A stretch of DNA of 25,385 bases, from positions 1-25,385 of IMG/VR virus record IMGVR_UViG_3300030105_000710; one strand, given 5' to 3'. Shown one piece after another: positions 1,734 to 15,224 of this stretch. The translations under genes were made by a program, and so were the position numbers. The notes under the pieces were generated by a model. That model searched no databases, had not been told where the DNA came from, and saw only the letters and a program-made list of their open reading frames with translations. Source of the stretch: a virus. The number at the start of each line of letters is the position of its first letter. The stretch's first letter is position 1.

Positions 1734-2690
1734 TTATTTCCCTAAATAATAACCGCCCGCACCTAGTGCCGACCCTCCAAGGCCGTACAGCCCTTGAAGA
1801 TTACTGTTGTACGTTGAAAGGTTGCCTTGATACGCTTGACTATTTCCAGCGTTCTGTTGATTAGCAGAAGCATACGCTGCGCCTTGATAATCAGGTGCTG
1901 CAATCTGGCCTTGCGGCGTGTTGAGAAATGATGGCCCTTGCGGTTGTGATCCTGACGATAAAGTAGCCAATTCTGACAGCGGTTGCGTTCGTTGCATCAA
2001 TATTTCGTTTATTGCTCGATCTCTTGCAGCGGATTGTAGCCCGAAATCGCGGGCAGCTTCGTTCCCTGCGTTAATATCTGCTCCTAAACGGAAGTCATTT
2101 TGCGCACGATTAAATTCATCAAATGCGTTGTCAAACCCTTCAGATCCGGTTACAAATCCTTGATTCGCTAAAGATGTATTTAATGCAGCCCTATCTCTGT
2201 CTGCTTGCGTATTGTTTCTAGCTAAAATTGCGTCTAACGATCTTTGCCGTGATGTTTCATCAAACGTTGGCGCAGCACCTAAAGTACTTAAACTAAACGG
2301 ATTGGCTAAAGTGCTTTGTACCTGCCCTAGCTGACTTTCAGCAGTGTCAGCATATTGTTGAGATACCCGATTTGAACTATCAAATAATGATTGTTGTTGC
2401 GGAGATAATTTCTGTTCTACTTGGAACCTTTGAAAAGGTGCATCGACAAAGTTACCAGTACCGTCATCAATTTTTCCGTAATTTTCGCGCCCCGTTGCTC
2501 CAGCCCATGCTGAAGAAAATTCGTCCTCAACTGGTTTAAATTCAACTGAGCCGCCTGGACTTATTTGATCTATAAAATTTAAATTTCTCGTGTCAACGGC
2601 TGCATTTCTGTTAAATTCTGCTTGTTCAGATGCTACTTGAGGTGCGCTAACAACTACTGGTGCTGGTGCTTGCGGTTTAGATTTGCCCAT
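1734..2690 (-). CDS. Putative internal virion protein (ejection-type, Gly/Ala-rich C-terminus)
   Basis: 318 residues, Gln/Asn/Ala-rich. It opens MGKSKPQAPAPVVVSAP and has a central long helical region with a 'RAALNTSLANQGFVTGSEGF' block followed by an N-A-F-D-E-F-N-R-A-Q-N-D pattern. I recognise this from structural proteins encoded next to tail/neck genes in many P22-like and related podophages. The C-terminus (about 297-318) is a short Gly/Ala/Leu stretch ending YYLGK, which could insert in membrane. The start lies 14 nt inside the end of the upstream GNAT-like gene, so the two are likely co-translated. No enzymatic motif was seen. Confidence 0.7.
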   Translation of the reverse strand: MGKSKPQAPAPVVVSAPQVASEQAEFNRNAAVDTRNLNFIDQISPGGSVEFKPVEDEFSSAWAGATGRENYGKIDDGTGNFVDAPFQRFQVEQKLSPQQQSLFDSSNRVSQQYADTAESQLGQVQSTLANPFSLSTLGAAPTFDETSRQRSLDAILARNNTQADRDRAALNTSLANQGFVTGSEGFDNAFDEFNRAQNDFRLGADINAGNEAARDFGLQSAARDRAINEILMQRTQPLSELATLSSGSQPQGPSFLNTPQGQIAAPDYQGAAYASANQQNAGNSQAYQGNLSTYNSNLQGLYGLGGSALGAGGYYLGK

Positions 2691-3117
2691 CGCAATTTTC
2701 CTTTAAAAATTTATTATAATCAGGGAGTAACATCCTCATTACAACTGCGTGTCGTTTCTTGCCGAATTGGTGAGCTAATATTGCTTCTTGTTTGAAACCG
2801 ATATGCTCGTTTACTTTTAGTGCTTTTATGTTATCCGCTGGGGTCGTTGTAAATATCTTATAACACTTTAACTGTTCAAACGGATACCGTAAAATTTCTT
2901 TTATTGTATTCTTCTTTGCCCAAACGGGACTTGTAGCAGCCATGCTTAGTTGTATAGTTCCAAAATGCGCGTGGTAATCATTAAAAATAAACCCCGCCAC
3001 TATTTTTTCTTTTACTATATATCCAATTCCAATATATTTTTCAAAACCCTCGTACACATGAGGTATATGATTAGATACCCATTCTGCAATTCTTTCATCA
3101 TGCCCATACATTAACAT
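2677..3117 (-). CDS. GNAT-like N-acetyltransferase in the virion module
   Basis: 146 residues with the layout of a phage-type GNAT domain. The core beta strands read YIGIGYIVKEKIVAGFIF. A motif-A-like region around residues 60-85 follows, then the motif-B signature N-I-K-A-L-K-V-N-E-H-I-G-F-K (the family's N-x-x-A-x-x-x-x-x-x-x-G-F element). GNAT proteins transfer acetyl or other acyl groups from CoA to amines; the substrate cannot be read from sequence. It sits between a tail/neck protein (gap about 20 nt) and an internal-type virion protein whose start overlaps its end by 14 nt. The context suggests modification of a virion or host-envelope target, which is inference. The acetyl-CoA-binding loop is degenerate, so activity is not assured. 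Confidence 0.75.
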   Translation of the reverse strand: MLMYGHDERIAEWVSNHIPHVYEGFEKYIGIGYIVKEKIVAGFIFNDYHAHFGTIQLSMAATSPVWAKKNTIKEILRYPFEQLKCYKIFTTTPADNIKALKVNEHIGFKQEAILAHQFGKKRHAVVMRMLLPDYNKFLKENCDGQI

Positions 3118-4727: not shown

Positions 4728-4805
4728 ATGGATAAAAACGAACGCGGCGATTTTGCGAACTTCATTCTTCTACCTCACAATCAATTCATTCTCAGGAACG
4801 TCTAA
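4728..4805 (+). CDS. Possible 25-residue micro-ORF, antisense to the LPD23 gene end
   Basis: ATG at 4728 is preceded by AAGGGAGG (4715-4722, 5-nt spacing), one of the strongest Shine-Dalgarno matches in the window, and by a TTGCCT-N17-TATAAT promoter. The peptide is MDKNERGDFANFILLPHNQF plus five residues, with no recognised domain. Its 3' part overlaps the end of the leftward 4770-6206 gene. It could be a real peptide, a leader, or only the translated head of an antisense transcript. Confidence 0.35.
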   Translation: MDKNERGDFANFILLPHNQFILRNV

Positions 4806-6206
4806 AGTATCCCAAGGCGGTGTTGCTCTGCGTTGTTCCGGCGTGTAATCCATGCGGGTTTGTACGTTACGGGCTTCGGCCTCCCCTGCTAGGCGTTGAT
4901 AGAGTTCAAAGTCTGTGCGCTGGTCATGCGCTTTTCTGAGCTTGTCTATATCTCGCATCTTAGTAGCGGCAGGTTGCAATTTCTCCATTTTACGACCCGC
5001 CTTTAGCGCAGCAGCCTTTGCTTGCTTCCTGTCACCCATAACTGAATTGAATTTATTTATTTGGCTGCTAGTTAAAGACCCGTTCATTTCTTCAAGGTGT
5101 TTATTCCTTAAAAACGCGGCAGCACCTCTAACCCACTCATCTCTTGCGGGGCCTGCCTTTTTAGGCTGTATTCCAATCGTGTCTCTGATTTCTGTAGACC
5201 ATCTATACCAATCCATCGTATTAGTGACCATCGAAGGCTTCGGGTTTGCTGCCTTAGAAAGTTCGTCTAATTTAGTGTAATAATCAGCCTGCATAAACGC
5301 GGCTCTATCTTCTTTGTGGCTGTCGTATTCCTTCTTGTCCCGGTAATGCACCCCAGCGCGACGGTGATAATCAAGGGTAACGCTGTCCCGCGCTGTCTCA
5401 GGATTGCCCCCGCGAGAAAAGTTTTCAGTTTCTTGCGTGGCGTGTTGGAACTCATGGTTTGCCACACTCCTACGCTCTGCATTATCACTGCCCTTCGCTA
5501 CGACAGTCTTGAATGATGGGTCATACTCCCCGCCTATTGGCCCCCTCGATATGCTTTGCTGGGTTGCATCCCACATATCAGGGTATGCCCCCTGCAACTC
5601 ATCATGCTGCAACCGCTGATACCCCTTCGGCGCGCCCGCAGGAGTTTCAAGGAATGACGCACTATCATCAATCTCAAACTTCCATTGCCCATCAACGTCT
5701 TTATACCAACCTGTCTCTTTCCAGACTTGGTTTCTGTCTGCACCCTTCGCCGTCAGGTCTTGGGCTTGCTGTAGGGCTGCTTGATCCGCTGTCTTGGCAG
5801 ACCTGCCGCCAAACATACGCAAGGCACCTTTAGGCACCTCTGAGAAGGCACCTAACCCAGCCATTTCCGCAACAAGCTCTAGGTTAACCTTATTATACTG
5901 GTCAGTCGCTTCCGGTGGTGCCGTGCCACTCATAACCGTTGGGCCAAGAGACAGGCTTGTGTCAATGGCTTTCTTATAACTATCGCCAACCGCCTTCAGA
6001 CCGCTTTCCAGCTTTCCAGGCACATCGGCGTGAAGAAGCTGCAATAGTGAACCTATAGGGCTGTCAACCATTGCTTGCATGGCACTAGTCTTTATTTCAG
6101 GTTTAGCCGTTGAACTGCCCCTTGGCCCCATACCAGACAAGCTCTGTCTATACGGAGTTGGCGTGGCAGCTTTTTCCATGCCTAATATCTGCTCTATAAA
6201 GCCCAC
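4770..6206 (-). CDS. LPD23-type polyvalent domain protein with zincin-like HExxH motif
   Basis: 478 residues. Residues about 155-460 match my memory of the 'large polyvalent protein-associated domain 23' pattern. It has an N-R-Q-V-W-K-E-T-G-W opening (159-168), an 'FEIDDS' strand (177-182), the metal-site-like HEFQH at 251-255 (HExxH form), and the closing block LAGEAEARNVQTRMDYTPEQ followed by R-R-A-T-P-P-W-D-T-L-D. The domain is usually seen inside giant polyvalent phage or conjugation proteins; here it is a separate gene. A metallopeptidase activity is inferred from HExxH plus the later Glu-rich segment and is unproven. Translation seems to start at GTG (6206) directly after the TAA of the adaptor gene, with a GGAGGCGA Shine-Dalgarno about 8 nt upstream; the alternative is ATG at 6179. 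Confidence 0.75.
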   Translation of the reverse strand: MGFIEQILGMEKAATPTPYRQSLSGMGPRGSSTAKPEIKTSAMQAMVDSPIGSLLQLLHADVPGKLESGLKAVGDSYKKAIDTSLSLGPTVMSGTAPPEATDQYNKVNLELVAEMAGLGAFSEVPKGALRMFGGRSAKTADQAALQQAQDLTAKGADRNQVWKETGWYKDVDGQWKFEIDDSASFLETPAGAPKGYQRLQHDELQGAYPDMWDATQQSISRGPIGGEYDPSFKTVVAKGSDNAERRSVANHEFQHATQETENFSRGGNPETARDSVTLDYHRRAGVHYRDKKEYDSHKEDRAAFMQADYYTKLDELSKAANPKPSMVTNTMDWYRWSTEIRDTIGIQPKKAGPARDEWVRGAAAFLRNKHLEEMNGSLTSSQINKFNSVMGDRKQAKAAALKAGRKMEKLQPAATKMRDIDKLRKAHDQRTDFELYQRLAGEAEARNVQTRMDYTPEQRRATPPWDTLDVPENELIVR

Positions 6207-7742: not shown

Positions 7743-8975
7743 TTAAGCAGTACCAGAAACGCGAACTGCAAGACGCTCGTCTATGGTTTTTACGCCATAT
7801 AAAACATCTAAACGGTATTTGCTGATGTCGTTTGTGCCGTCATACACAGGAATAACGCGAACATTAGTTCCTTTATATGATTGGCGAGAAACATCAACCG
7901 CACCTGGAGGCGCAACCAACGGAACACTCACTAGTGCAAATGCATTGTGACAAAACATTAAGTTTTGGCGATAACCAGTGCTATCTGTTCCAGCGACTGC
8001 AATGGCTGCGCCATCGCCAATAGCTGCGGAAACAGTTTGATGCGCCCCGGTAAGAATCGCGGCTGGTGACATTGTAAGAGTAATATCGCCACTTGAGTCA
8101 CTTATTGTAGTAACTACCGTGAACTGTTTAAGGAATGGCAAAGTTGCCTTCGTTATAGGATTCACAGCATTTACTCCAGCAATCGTAAATACGTCTCCAG
8201 CATTAAGTGTGCAACTACCAGATGTCCAACCGTCAGTAATTAAAGTTTGCGTATTCGTATCTTTTGAAGCCGCATAAGTTACTTGCTGGTTAGCACCGTT
8301 AGTAACTGGAGTGCCAGTATTTACGCCAACCGTGTGAGTCGGAACATTTTGCGACATAAACGTATCGACGCCGCCGATTGTACCAAGTGATCCACGCTTA
8401 TAAGCCTCACCAACTAACTTGTCATTTAACAAAGCAGTCTGTGCGCCGACAAGACCCCAATGATCTTCAGGAGATAATACTGCACATCTTCCGTCCATTG
8501 GTGTTGCGTATTCGTCAAGCCTTTGTGGGCCTTTAGCAAAGTCTTGATTGCTGTTAATGACCTGACCAGGAGTTCCAACCCAAGAGCTAACATTTTTATA
8601 CTGTGACATAAGATCAGTATCAATTTGGTTTGCTAGTTGGATCATAGCTGGCTTAATTACACGTTCTGAAAGTTCTTTGATGTCCATTGTCAATTCTTGA
8701 GAAGTGAAAGAGAAATCAATACCTTTTCTTTTATCTACAGAAAGCGTGAATTTGCCTTCAGTGGTATCTTGAACGTCCATTACAGCACCGTCACGAACGG
8801 TAAAGTCCATTGGTCGTTTAACAGAAATTGAAGAACCAACTTCGTATCCATTTACGGATTTTGAAAATTCTTCTTCGTAACCGCGAAAAACTTCTTTCGC
8901 CATTACCAAATTGTTGTCTAGCTGCAATACTGCTGCTTTAGCAATAATTGAAGCTGTTAAGGTCGTATTAGCCAT
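7743..8975 (-). CDS. Major capsid protein, P22 coat family
   Basis: 410 residues, close to the 430 of P22 gp5. The N-terminus (MANTTLTASIIAKAAVLQLD), 'EVFRGYEEEFSK' and the strand pattern G-S-S-I-S-V-K-R-P-M-D-F-T-V-R-D-G follow the P22 coat-protein family (HK97-like fold). The middle segment with 'TPMDGRCAVLSPEDHWGLVG' is the usual P-domain landmark. The gene is preceded by the scaffold gene and followed by a decoration-like gene, the standard order. Its GAAAGGA Shine-Dalgarno lies partly in a small hairpin (TATCC/GGATA, 8981-8995) just ahead of the ATG, which could tune expression. Confidence 0.92.
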   Translation of the reverse strand: MANTTLTASIIAKAAVLQLDNNLVMAKEVFRGYEEEFSKSVNGYEVGSSISVKRPMDFTVRDGAVMDVQDTTEGKFTLSVDKRKGIDFSFTSQELTMDIKELSERVIKPAMIQLANQIDTDLMSQYKNVSSWVGTPGQVINSNQDFAKGPQRLDEYATPMDGRCAVLSPEDHWGLVGAQTALLNDKLVGEAYKRGSLGTIGGVDTFMSQNVPTHTVGVNTGTPVTNGANQQVTYAASKDTNTQTLITDGWTSGSCTLNAGDVFTIAGVNAVNPITKATLPFLKQFTVVTTISDSSGDITLTMSPAAILTGAHQTVSAAIGDGAAIAVAGTDSTGYRQNLMFCHNAFALVSVPLVAPPGAVDVSRQSYKGTNVRVIPVYDGTNDISKYRLDVLYGVKTIDERLAVRVSGTA

Positions 8976-9011: not shown

Positions 9012-10019
9012 TTACAAACCAAGATGCTTGCTAAGTTCTGACATGTTCATCTTTTCTGCTTTACGAGTCAGGGTTGCTTTTCCAGTATTCTTAATTCCTT
9101 TTACTGGCTTGGTTTGCGCTAGATGTTTGGTTGGCCGCTTTTTAGTGGCCTGAGTCTGCCGATCATATAACATCGCTTTGTAAGCATACTCAGTGATTAC
9201 CGGGTTCAACGCCCAAGCGTCTAGTTCTCTCTGAGAAATATTTGGATGTTGCTGCCTAACGTGGTTTAGAAGTTCCGGTGCTTTTTCAGTTGAAAAATTC
9301 GGTATTCTTTTATTAAGCATCTCCACACCCTCCGCAGCTATAGTTGCTAATCGCTCTTTCTGTTGAGCGTCGGCAGCTTCTTCTTGCTGTTGGACAAGTG
9401 ACAAAGTTTGTTGAAATTGAGCTTCTTTTGAAGCGATTGCATCTGAAATCTGTCTGGCACGGTCAGGGTTGACTTGCCATTCCTGATTCAAATCAACTGC
9501 TTTAAGTTGCTCTAAGTCCGATCTTTCTTGCAGTCCTCGTGTATAAGTTTCAAGAGCTTCACCGTTCAATTCCGCTATTTTTGCGACGGTTTTTTCTTGA
9601 GTTTGAAGCGTCTTAGCTCGCTCCGCTGTTTCCTGATGCGATTTTGTAGCTGATGACCATACACCTTTCGAGAACTCGTCTATCTTAGTGGCTAGTTCTG
9701 GCGGTATTGCATCAACTGCAAACTCCAGCTTGTTGCCACCAAAATCAAAAGAGCGCATTTCTGGCTCATTAGTTTCATCAGTTTCTTCACCAGTTTCTTC
9801 ACCGCCTTCTTCGACAGCTTCTTCATTGCTTTCGTCGCTTTCTTCCGCTTCGGCTGCAATTTCTTCATGCTCGACTTCAGAATCAGCATTGCTATCTAAA
9901 GAAACTATTTCTGAGCTATCAGACTGAATATCTTCTAATGCAGTGATTAATGTTTCTTCTTGCTCTGCTGGTGCAGCTACGTTTTCTTGGACGTCGGCTG
10001 CGGGTTGTGCGTCAGACAT
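9012..10019 (-). CDS. Scaffolding protein
   Basis: 335 residues. Residues 1-95 are extremely acidic (runs such as EEGGEETGEETDETNEPE). A central region carries 'GGNKLEFAVDAIPPELATKI' then D-E-F-S-K-G-V-W-S-S, followed by a long Gln/Glu/Ala-rich coiled-coil region (about 115-260). The C-terminus is basic helix with K-A-E-K-M-N-M-S-E-L-S-K-H-L-G-L. Acidic body, coiled coil and small basic C-terminal helix are the organisation of P22-type scaffolds, whose C-terminal helix-turn-helix binds coat. The gene directly precedes the coat gene (36-nt gap) and has a strong AAAAGGAG Shine-Dalgarno 8 nt before ATG. Synthesis of the procapsid is the expected role. Confidence 0.8.
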   Translation of the reverse strand: MSDAQPAADVQENVAAPAEQEETLITALEDIQSDSSEIVSLDSNADSEVEHEEIAAEAEESDESNEEAVEEGGEETGEETDETNEPEMRSFDFGGNKLEFAVDAIPPELATKIDEFSKGVWSSATKSHQETAERAKTLQTQEKTVAKIAELNGEALETYTRGLQERSDLEQLKAVDLNQEWQVNPDRARQISDAIASKEAQFQQTLSLVQQQEEAADAQQKERLATIAAEGVEMLNKRIPNFSTEKAPELLNHVRQQHPNISQRELDAWALNPVITEYAYKAMLYDRQTQATKKRPTKHLAQTKPVKGIKNTGKATLTRKAEKMNMSELSKHLGL

Positions 10020-10090: not shown

Positions 10091-10837
10091 CTAATGCAGG
10101 AAAAAATCGAAGTCTGTTAAATTATCTGTAGGTGAATACAATGTGCTATTGCTTGGGGTAGATAGGTTATTTGCTACCATGCTTCCTAGTTGCTGTGCAG
10201 CAGTTTGCTGGCTTCCAGTACCTACAACGCTACCGGATTGATTAGTCTGCCCAGAAAATCCTTTGCCAAAATTATTTGCAGAATTAAAAGCACCGTAAGC
10301 TGTAGCGGCTAGTCCAATAGGGCCGCCAAGCACTGACCCGATGGTTCCTAATGCGGTCAATGGAGAAAACCCTGTTTCCTCTTGAAAAGTTCCCTGCTCA
10401 TTGATGCCTATTGGCGAAGTAATTCCAAGTATATTGGCAAGCATTGAGCCAACATCATTTTGACTATGTTGGGCTTCTTGAAGGGAAATATCAACGCTAT
10501 CAAGTGTATTCCCTAACTCCGCGTTTGTGGCTACGCTAAATGGCCCTGCTGCAACACCGTCTTTTGGCACTGAAAGATTATATTGTTGGGCATACGCTAA
10601 ATTCTGTATATTAGCTAATTTTTCTGCATCTTTATTAAGTTCAGCATTAAAATCGTCCTCTTCTGCTTGCATATTTACTACATCAGCATTGTTTATTTCA
10701 TCATTAAAACCATCGTCACCACCTGTGCCGTCGTCGTCTCCATCGCCGCCAAAGCACCAATGTTTTATATCATGTTCGTTCAGCCATTCTTCTTGTTTGA
10801 AAAGACCGTCAGACCACATTTTTTTAATTTCTAACAT
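10091..10837 (-). CDS. Unknown virion-module protein, RTX-like nonapeptide; partner of the HlyC-like gene
   Basis: 248 residues, not recognised as a family. Visible parts: residues 1-28 are a short Trp/Lys-containing helix. Residues 30-46 are a Gly/Asp stretch whose first nine residues (GGDGDDDGT) fit the RTX calcium-binding pattern GGxGxDxxx, with an imperfect second copy. Residues 51-90 are acidic helix. Residues 159-184 are Gly/Ala/Leu-rich and moderately hydrophobic (LTALGTIGSVLGGPIGLAAT), followed by Gly191-Lys192, the only lysine after position 92. The C-terminus is Ser/Asn/Thr-rich. It overlaps the HlyC-like acyltransferase gene by 14 nt and precedes the scaffold gene, suggesting co-translation. 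It may be an internal membrane-active ejection protein and acylation substrate; that is inference, and Gly/Asp low complexity could mimic RTX by chance. Confidence 0.75.
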   Translation of the reverse strand: MLEIKKMWSDGLFKQEEWLNEHDIKHWCFGGDGDDDGTGGDDGFNDEINNADVVNMQAEEDDFNAELNKDAEKLANIQNLAYAQQYNLSVPKDGVAAGPFSVATNAELGNTLDSVDISLQEAQHSQNDVGSMLANILGITSPIGINEQGTFQEETGFSPLTALGTIGSVLGGPIGLAATAYGAFNSANNFGKGFSGQTNQSGSVVGTGSQQTAAQQLGSMVANNLSTPSNSTLYSPTDNLTDFDFFLH

Positions 10838-11225
10838 TTTCTAAAATCTTTCCTTTGGCTCTAACTTTTTTTCTGCTGTGGCTTCGTATAAATTTAGCAT
10901 TGTGCAAAAAATCGTATTTTTCAAAGTGCCTAAACATTTCTTTAGTGTGTCCAAATGGCGCAACGAAATCCACGATCCATAAATTATTTCCAGATTGCCA
11001 ATCATTCGGCTGTATCTTTCTTGTTCCATTTTTATATCCATCAGATGATTCATTTGAAAACAAACCAAATGTAAAAAAACCCACCGCCTTATCATCTTGT
11101 TTTAAAAAACCGCATTGCTGCAACTTAATTGGCGGTATAATCAATCTTTCAATGTCTTCAACTCTCCATCTTCTATGTACTTTAGAATGTAGCATTAAAA
11201 ATAATGCGTCTTCTAAATCAGACAT
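10824..11225 (-). CDS. HlyC-family toxin-activating lysine acyltransferase homologue
   Basis: 133 residues, similar in length to the HlyC core. Motifs align by eye with E. coli HlyC: 'KVHRRW' (15-20) with 'PLHRNW', 'PPIKLQQCGF' with 'PAIQANQYVL', N-D-W-Q-S-G-N-N-L-W-I-V-D-F-V-A-P-F-G (74-92) with E-D-W-T-S-G-D-R-K-W-F-I-D-W-I-A-P-F-G, and 'AKFIR' with 'FRAIR'. The predicted catalytic pair is His17 and Asp86, 69 residues apart, the same spacing as HlyC His23 and Asp92. Family members use acyl-ACP to acylate lysines of RTX toxins and have a GNAT-type fold. The gene begins 4 nt after the portal stop and its end overlaps the 248-residue protein by 14 nt. Here it is inside the head cluster, with no hlyBD-like exporter nearby, so the substrate is probably a phage protein. 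Confidence 0.85.
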   Translation of the reverse strand: MSDLEDALFLMLHSKVHRRWRVEDIERLIIPPIKLQQCGFLKQDDKAVGFFTFGLFSNESSDGYKNGTRKIQPNDWQSGNNLWIVDFVAPFGHTKEMFRHFEKYDFLHNAKFIRSHSRKKVRAKGKILENVRN

Positions 11226-11228
11226 TTC

Positions 11229-13562
11229 CTACGTTATTTCAGCAATAATCATGTCCGGCGGGTTTGACGATATAGCCTCTGCCGCTTTTAACATTGCTTC
11301 TTTCGTTGCTTGCTCTTGATCCATCATATGTTCTTGATGCGAAATGTAAACTTTCGCCAGTTCCACTTGCCGATTTTTTTCATTTTCTATAGCCGTGAAT
11401 TGATCCTTTTGAGCTTGCTGCCGTTCTTCGTATTCCCATTGTGCTAACATTCCCGGTTTGTTTTGCAGTTGCAATTCTTCTAATTCAGCTTGACGCTCTT
11501 TTAATGTCAACTCTCTGTCTTTCAACACCAACTCCTCACCTGTTGCCATAGCGTCTGCTTGCGACTTTTTCGCGTCGGCTTCTGCTTTCATCATTTGAGC
11601 TTTTTTGTCTTGCTTAATGGCCTCATTTTCCGCTTTCATCCGTTCGATCTCTTGCATAACTTTTTCTTGCAATTGCTGCATTTCTTGATCTTTAGCTTGC
11701 AGTTGCTGTTGCATAGCCGCCATTTCAGGGTTGTCCGATTTGTTTTCTGCCTCTTCAGCTTGACGCACCTCTGGAGGTAGCAACGATTTTAATCTTTTCG
11801 CCACCATGTCTGCACCCACGAAGTCCATGTGATCCAGCAAAACATCGCCGACGAACGGAGCCGCCGCAGGTACTTGGCGCATAATTTCAATAAGTGTTTC
11901 ACGGGTTTCTTCTCTTTGTGTTGTGTAAGATGGGCCTGATTTTACATTAACGTCATATATGCCAACTGCCAGATTATACAATTCTGGGCCGCCGTCCACA
12001 TTTTCCTTGTTAGAGCCTCCATCTTCTTGAGTTAATTGTACTATTTTTGCTTTGTTATCTTCGCCAAGAATACGTACCGTGCTTTGTTGGGAATAAATTG
12101 AAGGAATTATATCAACTAAAACTTCACCAAGATATGAAATTGCCCGCGACATATTATCAAGGAAATGAAAGTTTGACACATCGCCTTGGCGTTCCCTAGC
12201 CATAATTGCGCGGCCTGATGTTTCGTTTGAACGTGCGCCCAAACTACTATTATAAATTCCGATTATTGATTTTATGTCGTCAATATTAGATGCAGCCTCG
12301 TTTAAAACGCCCGCAGGTACTCCTGCAAATGCTTGTCTTTGCGGTGCGCCACCAGACGCGGCGTTGTACTCTAAATACGCATGACTTCTTGTGTTTGCTG
12401 AAGCCCATTTTGCTTCATCGCCTTTTGGAACAAACCCTTTTGGCCCAATAAAAGGAGTTTTTGGGGCTAATGCCACTAACTCACATGCACTGCTCCTCCA
12501 GTAATTATACATCGATTGACTATCTTTCGTATCACGAATCATAGACCTGAAATGGCGTCTCCCATCAAGGAAAACTTCTTCGCCCCAAACAGGGCAAATC
12601 GGTATTTTTGATCCAGGCCACGCTTGTTCTTCTAAAATTTCGTCACCATTCATAATATAGCGCATAATTTTAGAAGTTTTTACTTCTCTCTCCCGCCTTA
12701 TCTCGCCGCCAGACATTAAAAGAAAAGCACTTATTATTTCGTTTTCTGTATTCATTCCTTCCATCGGAATATTGCCGTTTTCAAAATACCTTTCTGCCAT
12801 TTTAATTATTTCAGTATTTTTTATAGCTTGGTTTTGCTCTTCTCCCGTTTGCGGATCAGCAATAGTTAATTCAGACAACGTATACGAAGTAGCCTCTTTT
12901 TTAAAATATTCTGCAATTCTGACGCTATCTTCTGTTATCCACTGATCTGATGCTTCGTCTCTACTGTCACCTTGAAAATTAGCTAGCGAGGCATCTGGGT
13001 ATTTTGCTTTATATTCATCATTTCCCATAAATTCCGACACGAACGCATAATTCCAATCCGATGCATCAAAGCGAGTTGACGAAGTATCCCAATGTACTGA
13101 AAGCGGATTGGGAATCCGATTGATTCGCGCTTCCAACGAAAAACCCATGTCATGGGTATAATCAATGTCTACTCTAAAAAAACCAAAACCACCCGTCACC
13201 GCACAATCTAGCGCAGTGGAATACGCAACTTCCGCACTAGACCTGCGTTCTATAGATTTTATAATTCCTGCTATAACTTCTGCTGTATTCTCATCGCTGT
13301 CATTATCGCTTGGTGTTATATTTATTGCTGGTCTATTTTGACGACTCTCATTTACAACTGATCTGATAAAGGCCGGAAGCTTGTTTATTACCAACGCTGG
13401 TCTCCCTTCTTGAATCCGACTTTTTAATATCTCCTCTGGCCATTGTTGACTCATACGAGAAAACTTAAAATCTTCATAATAAGATTCTCGATTGAAATCA
13501 CTACCTTGATTGGAATCATAAAATTGTTCCAACGCCTCTTTTAAAATGTCGTCGTCTTTCAT
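11229..13562 (-). CDS. Portal protein, P22-like
   Basis: 777 residues, near the 725 of P22 gp1. It begins with charged helix containing 'FDASDWNYAFVSE'-type core later on, and the landmark 'PALVINKLPAFIRSVVNESR' followed by Q-N-R-P (about 54-77), typical of the P22-type portal family. 'SIERRSSAEVAYSTALDCAV' and the following T-G-G-F-G-F-F-R-V lie at about 107-137. The C-terminal 180 residues are Gln/Glu/Lys-rich coiled coil, fitting the barrel of P22 portals. It forms the dodecameric ring at the packaging vertex and works with TerL, encoded 67 nt upstream. The short gap to the next gene (3 nt) suggests coupled translation with the acyltransferase. Confidence 0.9.
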   Translation of the reverse strand: MKDDDILKEALEQFYDSNQGSDFNRESYYEDFKFSRMSQQWPEEILKSRIQEGRPALVINKLPAFIRSVVNESRQNRPAINITPSDNDSDENTAEVIAGIIKSIERRSSAEVAYSTALDCAVTGGFGFFRVDIDYTHDMGFSLEARINRIPNPLSVHWDTSSTRFDASDWNYAFVSEFMGNDEYKAKYPDASLANFQGDSRDEASDQWITEDSVRIAEYFKKEATSYTLSELTIADPQTGEEQNQAIKNTEIIKMAERYFENGNIPMEGMNTENEIISAFLLMSGGEIRREREVKTSKIMRYIMNGDEILEEQAWPGSKIPICPVWGEEVFLDGRRHFRSMIRDTKDSQSMYNYWRSSACELVALAPKTPFIGPKGFVPKGDEAKWASANTRSHAYLEYNAASGGAPQRQAFAGVPAGVLNEAASNIDDIKSIIGIYNSSLGARSNETSGRAIMARERQGDVSNFHFLDNMSRAISYLGEVLVDIIPSIYSQQSTVRILGEDNKAKIVQLTQEDGGSNKENVDGGPELYNLAVGIYDVNVKSGPSYTTQREETRETLIEIMRQVPAAAPFVGDVLLDHMDFVGADMVAKRLKSLLPPEVRQAEEAENKSDNPEMAAMQQQLQAKDQEMQQLQEKVMQEIERMKAENEAIKQDKKAQMMKAEADAKKSQADAMATGEELVLKDRELTLKERQAELEELQLQNKPGMLAQWEYEERQQAQKDQFTAIENEKNRQVELAKVYISHQEHMMDQEQATKEAMLKAAEAISSNPPDMIIAEIT

Positions 13563-13629: not shown

Positions 13630-14895
13630 TTAGCTCATCCATCCACCTGATGATGGAGGTGGCTGATAATAGTTTTCTTTTTCTCTTGGCTTTCCTTGCA
13701 ATAATTCAGGAAATAATTCTGTAAAAGCCCATATCGCGCTTTCCGCACGATCTGGAGAATCGCTACCTTCGTAGCCCTCAGAAGTAAATTTGCAAAGCTG
13801 ATCTTCTAACTTATCAAATGTACCGACATGACTGACCATATCCAAATTGTACAGTGCGCTGATCGGTTCAGCCCTCACGTGTTTTCCCCTTGTTGCCCTA
13901 ACTTCAATAACTGGGATGTTGTTTCGCACAGTTTGCAAAGTATGCTTGACCATATCCCCGCCTTGATTAATTTCACAAACTATTCCATCTGCGTCAAATT
14001 TATCAAATAACGAAACTGCTCGTCGCGCCCACTCATGCGGCGCGCCACGGGTAGAGCCGTCTGCTATCACGTAGCCCCGCCCATCTGATCCTTTACAGCA
14101 CACTGATATTCCATGTTCATCAGACCTTTCTGTATTGCTTACCGCTGGATCAATTCCAACTAATGTTCTTTCTCGCTCGACTGGCATTATTGATACACGA
14201 TTTGCGTGGATATTCTGACGATTAAAAATAGCATTTTGAGCTTGCGGCTCGTAGTGTCCTAGCCAAATATGGGCGTATCGATCTGGATTTGTCCGCTCAT
14301 CAAATTCTCTTTCTGCCTCTAGTTCAGCAGGAAAAAACTTATTTTGGTCAAAGTTTACTTGCCGGATGATTGCATTTTCAGGTGGTGTAACATTTCTAAA
14401 AAATTTGTCCACTGGATCTGTGGCAGAACGTGGATTCCAAGAGAACCATAATTCTGAATTAGGGGTGCGAATTGTTGGCCGCAGTAATTCTAACGATTTT
14501 TGCGACAACGAAGCACTTTCCTCGCACCATGCAATGTTGAAGCCTTCTAAACTTGTTATTGATTGCGCCGTGTGGTCTTGCAATCCTTGGAAAATTATTA
14601 TGCCGTCTCCGGGTGTTTTTATGCAATCATTTTGGATTTCAAATAAATTCTTTTTACCCATGCTATTTATTTTGTCTTCAAGTAATCTTTTGGCCGATTC
14701 TTTCAAGGACTTTTGAACTTCTCGAACGCATACAGCACGAAATCCTTTTGTTGTGCTAGCATTCGCAATCATAGCTTCTGCGAAAAAATGGGACTTTGCA
14801 GAACCCCTTCCGCCAAACAATGCCTTATATCGGCTAGGTTTCAAAAAATCTTTAAAAATGTCAGCCGCTATTCCGACTTGGTATTCTTTCCCCAT
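13630..14895 (-). CDS. terL: Terminase large subunit
   Basis: 421 residues. ATPase domain: Walker A GGRGSAKS at 28-35, Walker B 'FNIAWCEE' at 119-126 with the catalytic Glu at its end, and the coupling motif 'LWFSWNPRS' at 149-157. Nuclease domain: 'GIDPAVS' (Asp249), 'CEINQGGD' (Glu308) and 'SPDRAESAIWAF' (Asp382), the three acidic sites of the RNase H-like fold. This is the PBSX/SPP1-type terminase_3 arrangement. It cuts concatemeric DNA and drives packaging through the portal encoded next. Its start overlaps the small-subunit gene by 28 nt. Confidence 0.95.
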   Translation of the reverse strand: MGKEYQVGIAADIFKDFLKPSRYKALFGGRGSAKSHFFAEAMIANASTTKGFRAVCVREVQKSLKESAKRLLEDKINSMGKKNLFEIQNDCIKTPGDGIIIFQGLQDHTAQSITSLEGFNIAWCEESASLSQKSLELLRPTIRTPNSELWFSWNPRSATDPVDKFFRNVTPPENAIIRQVNFDQNKFFPAELEAEREFDERTNPDRYAHIWLGHYEPQAQNAIFNRQNIHANRVSIMPVERERTLVGIDPAVSNTERSDEHGISVCCKGSDGRGYVIADGSTRGAPHEWARRAVSLFDKFDADGIVCEINQGGDMVKHTLQTVRNNIPVIEVRATRGKHVRAEPISALYNLDMVSHVGTFDKLEDQLCKFTSEGYEGSDSPDRAESAIWAFTELFPELLQGKPREKENYYQPPPSSGGWMS

Positions 14896-15224
14896 AAAAT
14901 TATTGGCCCTCCCTCTTCACCGCTAATTTCGTTGACAGACGTTTCTTTCCATCCGGCGCGGCAACCCATCCAATATTTCTGGGCCTGGACATCGCCGCCA
15001 ATAGCCTTGTTGTACATTGCCCCGCCGACCTTGGCGTTAGCCTTGATCCAAGCCGTGTCGATCTCCTCACGGTAATACTTCGTTAAAGTTTTAATATCGA
15101 CGCCAATTACCTTGGCAATATTCTCCTGGGATATGCCGACAGCAGCCATCATTGACACGGCTTCAGCTTCCTCATCGGTGCGCTTATGCGGCGGTTTTGT
15201 TAGCTTCTTTGGCTTCTTTGTCAT
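14868..15224 (-). CDS. terS: Terminase small subunit
   Basis: 118 residues. The N-terminus is Lys/Pro-rich (MTKKPKKLTKPPHKRTDEE), then a helix-turn-helix 'AVGISQENIAKVIGVDIKTL' (about 28-47) followed by Y-Y-R-E-E-I-D-T and a second helical part 'KVGGAMYNKAIGGDVQAQKY' then W-M-G-C-R-A-G-W-K-E. This 'HTH plus ALYNxAxGGDxxAxxFWxKxRxxW' arrangement is typical of phage small terminases that recognise pac or cos DNA. The gene directly precedes and overlaps terL by 28 nt. An AGGAAAG Shine-Dalgarno lies just upstream of ATG 15224. Confidence 0.85.
   Translation of the reverse strand: MTKKPKKLTKPPHKRTDEEAEAVSMMAAVGISQENIAKVIGVDIKTLTKYYREEIDTAWIKANAKVGGAMYNKAIGGDVQAQKYWMGCRAGWKETSVNEISGEEGGPIILWGKNTKSE

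Follow-up and report, generated by a model that had tools for sequence, protein, structure and literature searches.

The closest described relatives of the gene analysed here are acyltransferases of the HlyC/ApxC family (TAAT, PF02794). As described in PMC8510554 and PMC8953716, HlyC, CyaC, RtxC and CdiC modify lysine. CdiC, a HlyC relative outside RTX toxins, lipidates CdiA of class IV CDI at Lys1467, and, in PMC8510554, this lipidation is proposed to act as an outer-membrane anchor.

Genes of this kind are also found in phages. The Pelagibacter phages HTVC112P, 026P, 111P, 115P, 103P and 104P and the Roseobacter phage CRP-235 carry genes annotated as toxin-activating lysine-acyltransferases, and, given these seven deposited marine phages, the phage hlyC gene itself is not new. 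In the open-access literature, in a search that mostly stopped short of full texts, we found no paper on the function of phage HlyC and no case of fatty acylation of a phage virion protein. In animal viruses, virion proteins are known to carry fatty acyl groups.

We analysed a hlyC-like gene in a 25,385-base virus record (the whole stretch of DNA, referred to below as the window). While HlyC-type genes in phages were already known, its tagged partner, the product of the next gene (here called X), and the existence of lysine-free X proteins are the new content of this study.

Results

A sequence-only reading of this DNA had claimed an HlyC-like gene at 10824-11225, and profile, sequence and predicted fold all agree with it. 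The ORF at this place lies on the minus strand, starts with ATG and encodes 133 aa. The protein scored 100.4 bits against PF02794 (E 8.9e-29; cut-off 25) and, in a sequence alignment, matched ApxC (4whn) with 97 residues against 97 (E 4.4e-12). The predicted model (pLDDT 88.8) had the same ApxC structure as its best PDB match (VIA Z 16.9, rmsd 2.3, 124 residues aligned), with the runner-up at Z 8.5, and Foldseek matched the model to ApxC with an E value of 5e-10. Both sites named by that reading, SKVHRRW and DWQSGNNLWIVDFVAPFG, are present, and the 69-residue spacing between His17 (codon 11175-11177, minus strand) and Asp86 (codon 10968-10970, minus strand) holds. These two residues align with a His and an Asp of ApxC, which we take to be its catalytic His24 and Asp93. 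In PHROGs the protein matches phrog_20210, of unknown function (E 4e-24); a search of NCBIfam gave no match, and there were no HlyC family matches in 14 control genomes. We conclude that the window ORF encodes a genuine member of the HlyC family and belongs to a phage head operon.

The proposed head-gene context was confirmed as well. The minus strand of the window encodes a head cluster of the P22 type, in the order TerL-portal-hlyC-X-putative scaffold-coat, with a terminase small subunit-like gene at 14868-15224, the terminase large subunit at 13630-14895 (PF04466, 4.6e-28), the P22-type portal protein at 11229-13562 (PF16510, 4.1e-174) and the P22-type major coat protein at 7743-8975 (PF11651, 2.3e-58). 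hlyC had been placed between portal and scaffold; the portal gene indeed adjoins it, stopping 3 nt short of the hlyC start, but gene X (10091-10837, minus strand, 248 aa), which overlaps hlyC by 14 nt (10824-10837), separates it from the putative scaffold gene (9012-10019, minus strand), so named from its position and acidic composition and giving no family match at cut-off in Pfam or PHROGs. The flanks of hlyC are thus portal and X, not RTX protoxin or T1SS genes. No RTX or type I secretion gene was found among 20 window proteins between 266 and 19100 (Pfam/PHROGs, ten of them PHROGs only), and neither cdiA nor cdiB was found beside hlyC or among the same 20 proteins.

Three other genes of the window gave matches worth recording. 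A gene in the tail-side region (2677-3117) is of the acyl-CoA N-acyltransferase type (phrog_4470, E 1.3e-28; Pfam GNAT matches under cut-off), and the product of 4770-6206, which adjoins a tail gene, has the polyvalent-protein domain LPD23 (E 4e-23). The product of 15775-16152 matches two families with conflicting names, phrog_2252 ('endolysin; inhibits RNA polymerase', 1.9e-42) and phrog_801 ('dATP / dGTP pyrophosphohydrolase', 3e-27).

We collected HlyC relatives from viruses by two IMG/VR motif scans and homology searches, which gave at least 152 loci with an HlyC-like ORF (L-numbers below are their labels) in at least 17 clusters at 45% identity; the set is a sample, and some of these loci are one contig counted twice. 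Since many contigs are near-identical, locus counts are not independent. All 35 members of a diverse panel matched PF02794 at E ≤ 0.01. The main scans used motif patterns containing W83 and Asp86 (one of them also APFG), so that conservation of these residues is partly by construction. The sequence-only reading had named loss of the His/Asp pair in relatives as evidence against it. Asp86 was Asp in 35/35 of the panel, with Asp built into the search patterns, whereas the His17 column held His in 18, Tyr in 10, Trp in 3 and other residues in 4. However, in the hlyC genes paired with tagged X (see below), His was kept in 66 of 73, replaced by Tyr in 6 and cut short in 1, as read by regular expressions. 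In a published model, as given in PMC8510554, Asp is the base and His-to-Ala enzymes retain some activity; a Tyr-bearing enzyme, therefore, need not be dead.

Some members of the collection are found in other settings. The HlyC protein of L049 is present in 14 plasmid records, 12 of them from E. coli. Two HlyC-like genes lie on a Hyphomicrobiales MAG contig (L208:27-2068), and after each of them comes an unknown gene of 371-379 aa. In L017 (3416-3892) and L043, an HlyC with Tyr for His is encoded directly after a gene whose product starts MC[ML]GGGGDGG and two genes before another, whose product in L017 has a start that seems to resemble that of a T7 gp14-type internal virion protein.

In clusters 0 (which includes the window) and 4, X has an N-terminal tag ending in Cys-[Phe/Tyr]-x-[Gly/Ser]-Asp, followed by a Gly/Asp/Ser-rich stretch, and its gene overlaps hlyC, with overlaps of 8-64 nt among the tagged examples listed. 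The tag comes in two types, W (MW[NST]D...CFxGD, the type of the window) and B (ENRIC[FY]x[GS]D). Comparison of tagged X places the tag of the window protein at residues 1-34 (MLEIKKMWSDG...DIKHWCFGGDGD; 10736-10837, minus strand). It includes Cys28, the sole cysteine of window X and the proposed acceptor (codon 10754-10756, minus strand), and Lys25, an alternative acceptor in the window type (codon 10763-10765, minus strand).

The association of tag and hlyC is specific, with the reservation that its counts, like the lysine enrichment given below, come from the very data that had served to define the tag. Among the matches listed, 78 of the 149 ORFs directly downstream of viral hlyC had the strict tag within residues 1-60 (57 of 119 after ORFs with identical starts were merged), while 71 lacked it, 14 of these being near variants of X. 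By HlyC cluster, again among the matches listed, the tag was confined to 2 of 17 (62/79 in cluster 0, 6/7 in cluster 4, 0 in the other 15). Downstream of bacterial hlyC it was found in 0/28 ORFs (39 hlyC, 11 without such an ORF). Other viral ORFs of at least 200 aa, used as a control, had it in 6/780, all six of which were X by inspection (two truncated by the end of the contig, three with an intervening gene, one with an alternative start); removing them by eye left 0/774. Scanning for the tag alone gave the same picture, with hlyC directly upstream in 32/32 ENRIC loci and in 14/14 evaluable HCCF loci (18 found; L173 and L174 were left out as cut at the contig end, and L172 and L176 as chance matches in short ORFs).

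The pair occurs in several gene orders. L115 shares portal-hlyC-X with the window, and L110 has TerL-(weak holin match)-hlyC-X-portal; in L014, TerL follows hlyC-X at some distance, and in L053 the order is hlyC-X-tail protein. The portal adjacency that other phages might have shared is thus seen in some, with TerL or tail genes near the pair in others. The suggestion that the phage lipidates a virion or ejection protein gains support, as regards a phage-protein target, from so specific a partner across many viral contigs. In L077 (1214-3904), L151 and L167, a gene for a 260-aa hydrophobic protein sits between hlyC and tagged X.

Window X and six other X proteins gave no family match at cut-off in Pfam or PHROGs, and no relatives of window X, L112 X or L021 X were found in 50,697 phage records (E 1 or E 1e-3). 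The AlphaFold (AF2) model of window X, with a pLDDT of 38, was too uncertain to be informative. We considered X as a transmembrane protein and rejected this, as a simple hydropathy limit was passed by 13/109 complete downstream proteins, of which 1/24 W-type and 0/38 B-type.

We compared the conservation of the tag with that of HlyC and of the rest of X. In HlyC pairs at least 95% identical, the tag averaged 98% identity and the rest of X 62% (W-type, 26 pairs) or 72% (B-type, 38 pairs). L003 and L005, for instance, have 400 of 402 nt of hlyC and the whole 34-residue tag in common, against 32% identity in the rest of X. As tag and hlyC adjoin, this co-variation may be in part linkage. Between the window (10820-11300) and L006, hlyC DNA is 96% identical and portal, coat and tag DNA 74-75%, and hlyC seems to pass between related phages independently of its neighbours; both tags keep KHWCFGGDGD. 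Codon differences in the B-type tag are about half non-synonymous (3276 synonymous, 3152 non-synonymous; 143 and 46 in a W subgroup), and the C-terminal region of B-type X is conserved too.

To ask which residue might accept an acyl group, we counted cysteines and lysines in 73 distinct tagged X proteins (41 B-type, 32 W-type; 59 complete, including 35 complete B-type), leaving out residues before the B tag. Three further B-type proteins (L018, L033 and L047, with CYDSSS or CYDSQS and a second Cys at residue 3) bring the B-type total to 44 and were left out of later counts. Cysteine was present in 69/73 tags (31/32 W-type, 38/41 B-type) and nowhere outside the tag in the visible part of the 73 proteins; many W tags have two adjacent cysteines (HCC). 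The four tags without it have Arg (L011, L021, L034) or Tyr (L014), and the HlyC proteins of L014 and L021 still have His and Asp.

Lysine behaves differently. Six of the 35 complete B-type X proteins (328-411 aa) have no lysine at all, their sole cysteine being in the tag; two of them, L082 and L182, would gain lysines if translation began at an earlier GTG, while the other four have no earlier start. The tag lacks lysine in 22/41 B-type and 6/32 W-type proteins, and the 44 B-type X show no lysine column at 50%. B-type X has a K/(K+R) of 0.07 vs 0.41 in other ORFs on the same contigs (lower in 35/35), and W-type X shows weak lysine avoidance (0.46 vs 0.53; lower in 18/24). The few lysines of B-type X are enriched in the tag (17/560 tag residues vs 42/11877 elsewhere; 17 of 59 lysines), and in 9/35 the only lysine is located there, which fits a lysine acceptor in these proteins. 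Likewise, L005 X has two lysines only, both in the tag, and Lys25 of the window is invariant in five near X proteins, but not conserved more widely. An HlyA-like 'Gly-Lys' acylation site, NNFGKGF, was considered in X and rejected, as it is absent from L003 and L005 X.

The idea of fatty acyl chains on internal lysines, carried over from RTX operons by the sequence-only reading, finds no support for X across its relatives, where cysteine is the recurring tag residue. The lysine-free proteins speak against taking the enzyme of the hlyC-X pair simply as a lysine acyltransferase, and the distribution of residues points to cysteine as the acceptor at least in these members.

Discussion

Our inference is that HlyC places an acyl group on the X tag and that, in part of the family, cysteine is probably the acceptor. 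In the explanation that we favour, and to which we give a probability of about 0.5 as a whole, the HlyC-fold acyltransferase would lipidate the tag of the protein encoded by the next gene, X, likeliest on the conserved Cys, and thereby aid DNA entry. HlyC and X would be translated together in the head operon, HlyC just before X; a fatty acyl group, presumably drawn from host acyl-ACP, would be transferred to the N-terminal tag, likeliest to its conserved cysteine (Cys28 in the window), although a nearby lysine may be the acceptor in some members. Once lipidated, X, which for the rest looks mostly disordered, may then associate with the membrane or a portal-proximal structure, the lipid either holding or inserting X at the membrane during entry or placing it near the portal during assembly, and in this way X may help the DNA to enter. 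A more general proposal, which we put forward tentatively, is that many phages encode a protein S-acyltransferase derived from HlyC, whose target would be a dedicated N-terminal Cys tag on a virion or ejection protein that is disordered and, in one branch, avoids lysine.

It is also conceivable, if somewhat doubtful, that HlyC uses its canonical chemistry on X, the acceptor being a lysine (for window X, Lys25, Lys5 or Lys6) and the tag Cys serving recognition or packing. Lysine acylation is the known chemistry of HlyC family members, and the invariance of Lys25 in the five near X proteins and the two tag lysines of L005 X would suit it; lysine avoidance outside the B-type tag could even prevent stray acylation. 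However, such chemistry would have no acceptor in the six lysine-free proteins (in L082 and L182 depending on the choice of start) or in the 22 B-type and six W-type tags without lysine, and B-type X has no lysine column even at 50%. We consider it unlikely that X is not a substrate at all and that its tag binds portal, scaffold or enzyme for assembly, while HlyC modifies, for example, a portal or tail protein. The 71/149 viral hlyC loci without an adjacent strict tag (among the matches listed), the annotation of the next gene in HTVC112P, 026P and 111P as a tail protein and the possibility of linkage behind the co-variation are in line with this, but the pairing of hlyC and X is kept across different gene orders, and hlyC stands at 14/14 and 32/32 evaluable tag matches.

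A change of activity, with the phage enzyme acting on a small molecule, a lipid or the N-terminal amine of its partner, like other GNAT-fold enzymes, seems to us quite improbable. GNAT-fold neighbours do appear in the structure search, Tyr or Trp replaces His in 13/35 panel members, and partners in other lineages often start Met-Gly or Met-Ser-Gly. The window HlyC, though, has retained both dyad and HlyC motif, its match to ApxC (Z 16.9) is much better than that to the next GNAT listed (Z 8.5), and window X starts Met-Leu.

If the more general proposal is true, hlyC and X would make up a viral module for lipidation, and the HlyC family, with cysteine as acceptor, would gain an acceptor chemistry new to it. 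Since the proposed enzyme and substrate are defined and the tag is short, the lipidation question is directly testable in E. coli. The recurrent His-to-Tyr change is, in addition, relevant to the disputed question of which of the two residues, His or Asp, is essential.

Among deposited phages, the window HlyC matches CRP-235, HTVC112P, 115P, 103P and 104P at 24-27% identity, and the HTVC112P protein as a query adds HTVC026P and 111P. Of the six annotated records examined, five resemble the window in having hlyC among late/structural genes, with a gene for a protein of about 417-1102 aa immediately after it; in HTVC103P, hlyC lies among small early-looking genes ahead of replication genes. In contrast to the window, five aligned pelagiphage HlyC proteins lack His at the His17 position and the APFG motif, and the pelagiphage partners are Lys-rich and have no Cys tag. 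Judging from representatives, partners in pelagiphage-type clusters start Met-Gly, followed by a Lys-rich or hydrophobic stretch, and those in other clusters start Met-Gly-Gly-Gly or Met-Ser-Gly-Gly-Gly. Given these different partner starts and the different place of the gene in HTVC103P, lineages may differ in the acceptor and perhaps also in the role.

T7 gp6.7 and gp7.3 are likewise encoded in the neighbourhood of the portal gene, just upstream of it; gp6.7 is annotated as injected from the virion and gp7.3 as required for infectivity. gp6.7 starts MCF, and gp7.3 has a Lys-rich start like the pelagiphage partners. The likeness to hlyC partners, however, is confined to the protein starts.

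With HlyC/ApxC the window enzyme shares the fold, the His/Asp dyad, the DWxSG..W..D..APFG motif and a gene that adjoins that of the presumed substrate. It differs in being a 133-aa protein encoded in a phage head operon, where the 20 proteins scanned in the window include none of an RTX or type I secretion system, and in having a partner some of whose relatives are without lysine. CdiC, as described in PMC8510554, is also a HlyC relative outside RTX toxins whose substrate engages the Gram-negative envelope; CdiA is a bacterial surface effector, whereas the window has a phage gene with a Cys-bearing tag. By analogy, CdiC is the nearest worked precedent for the lipidation that we propose for the phage HlyC-X pair.
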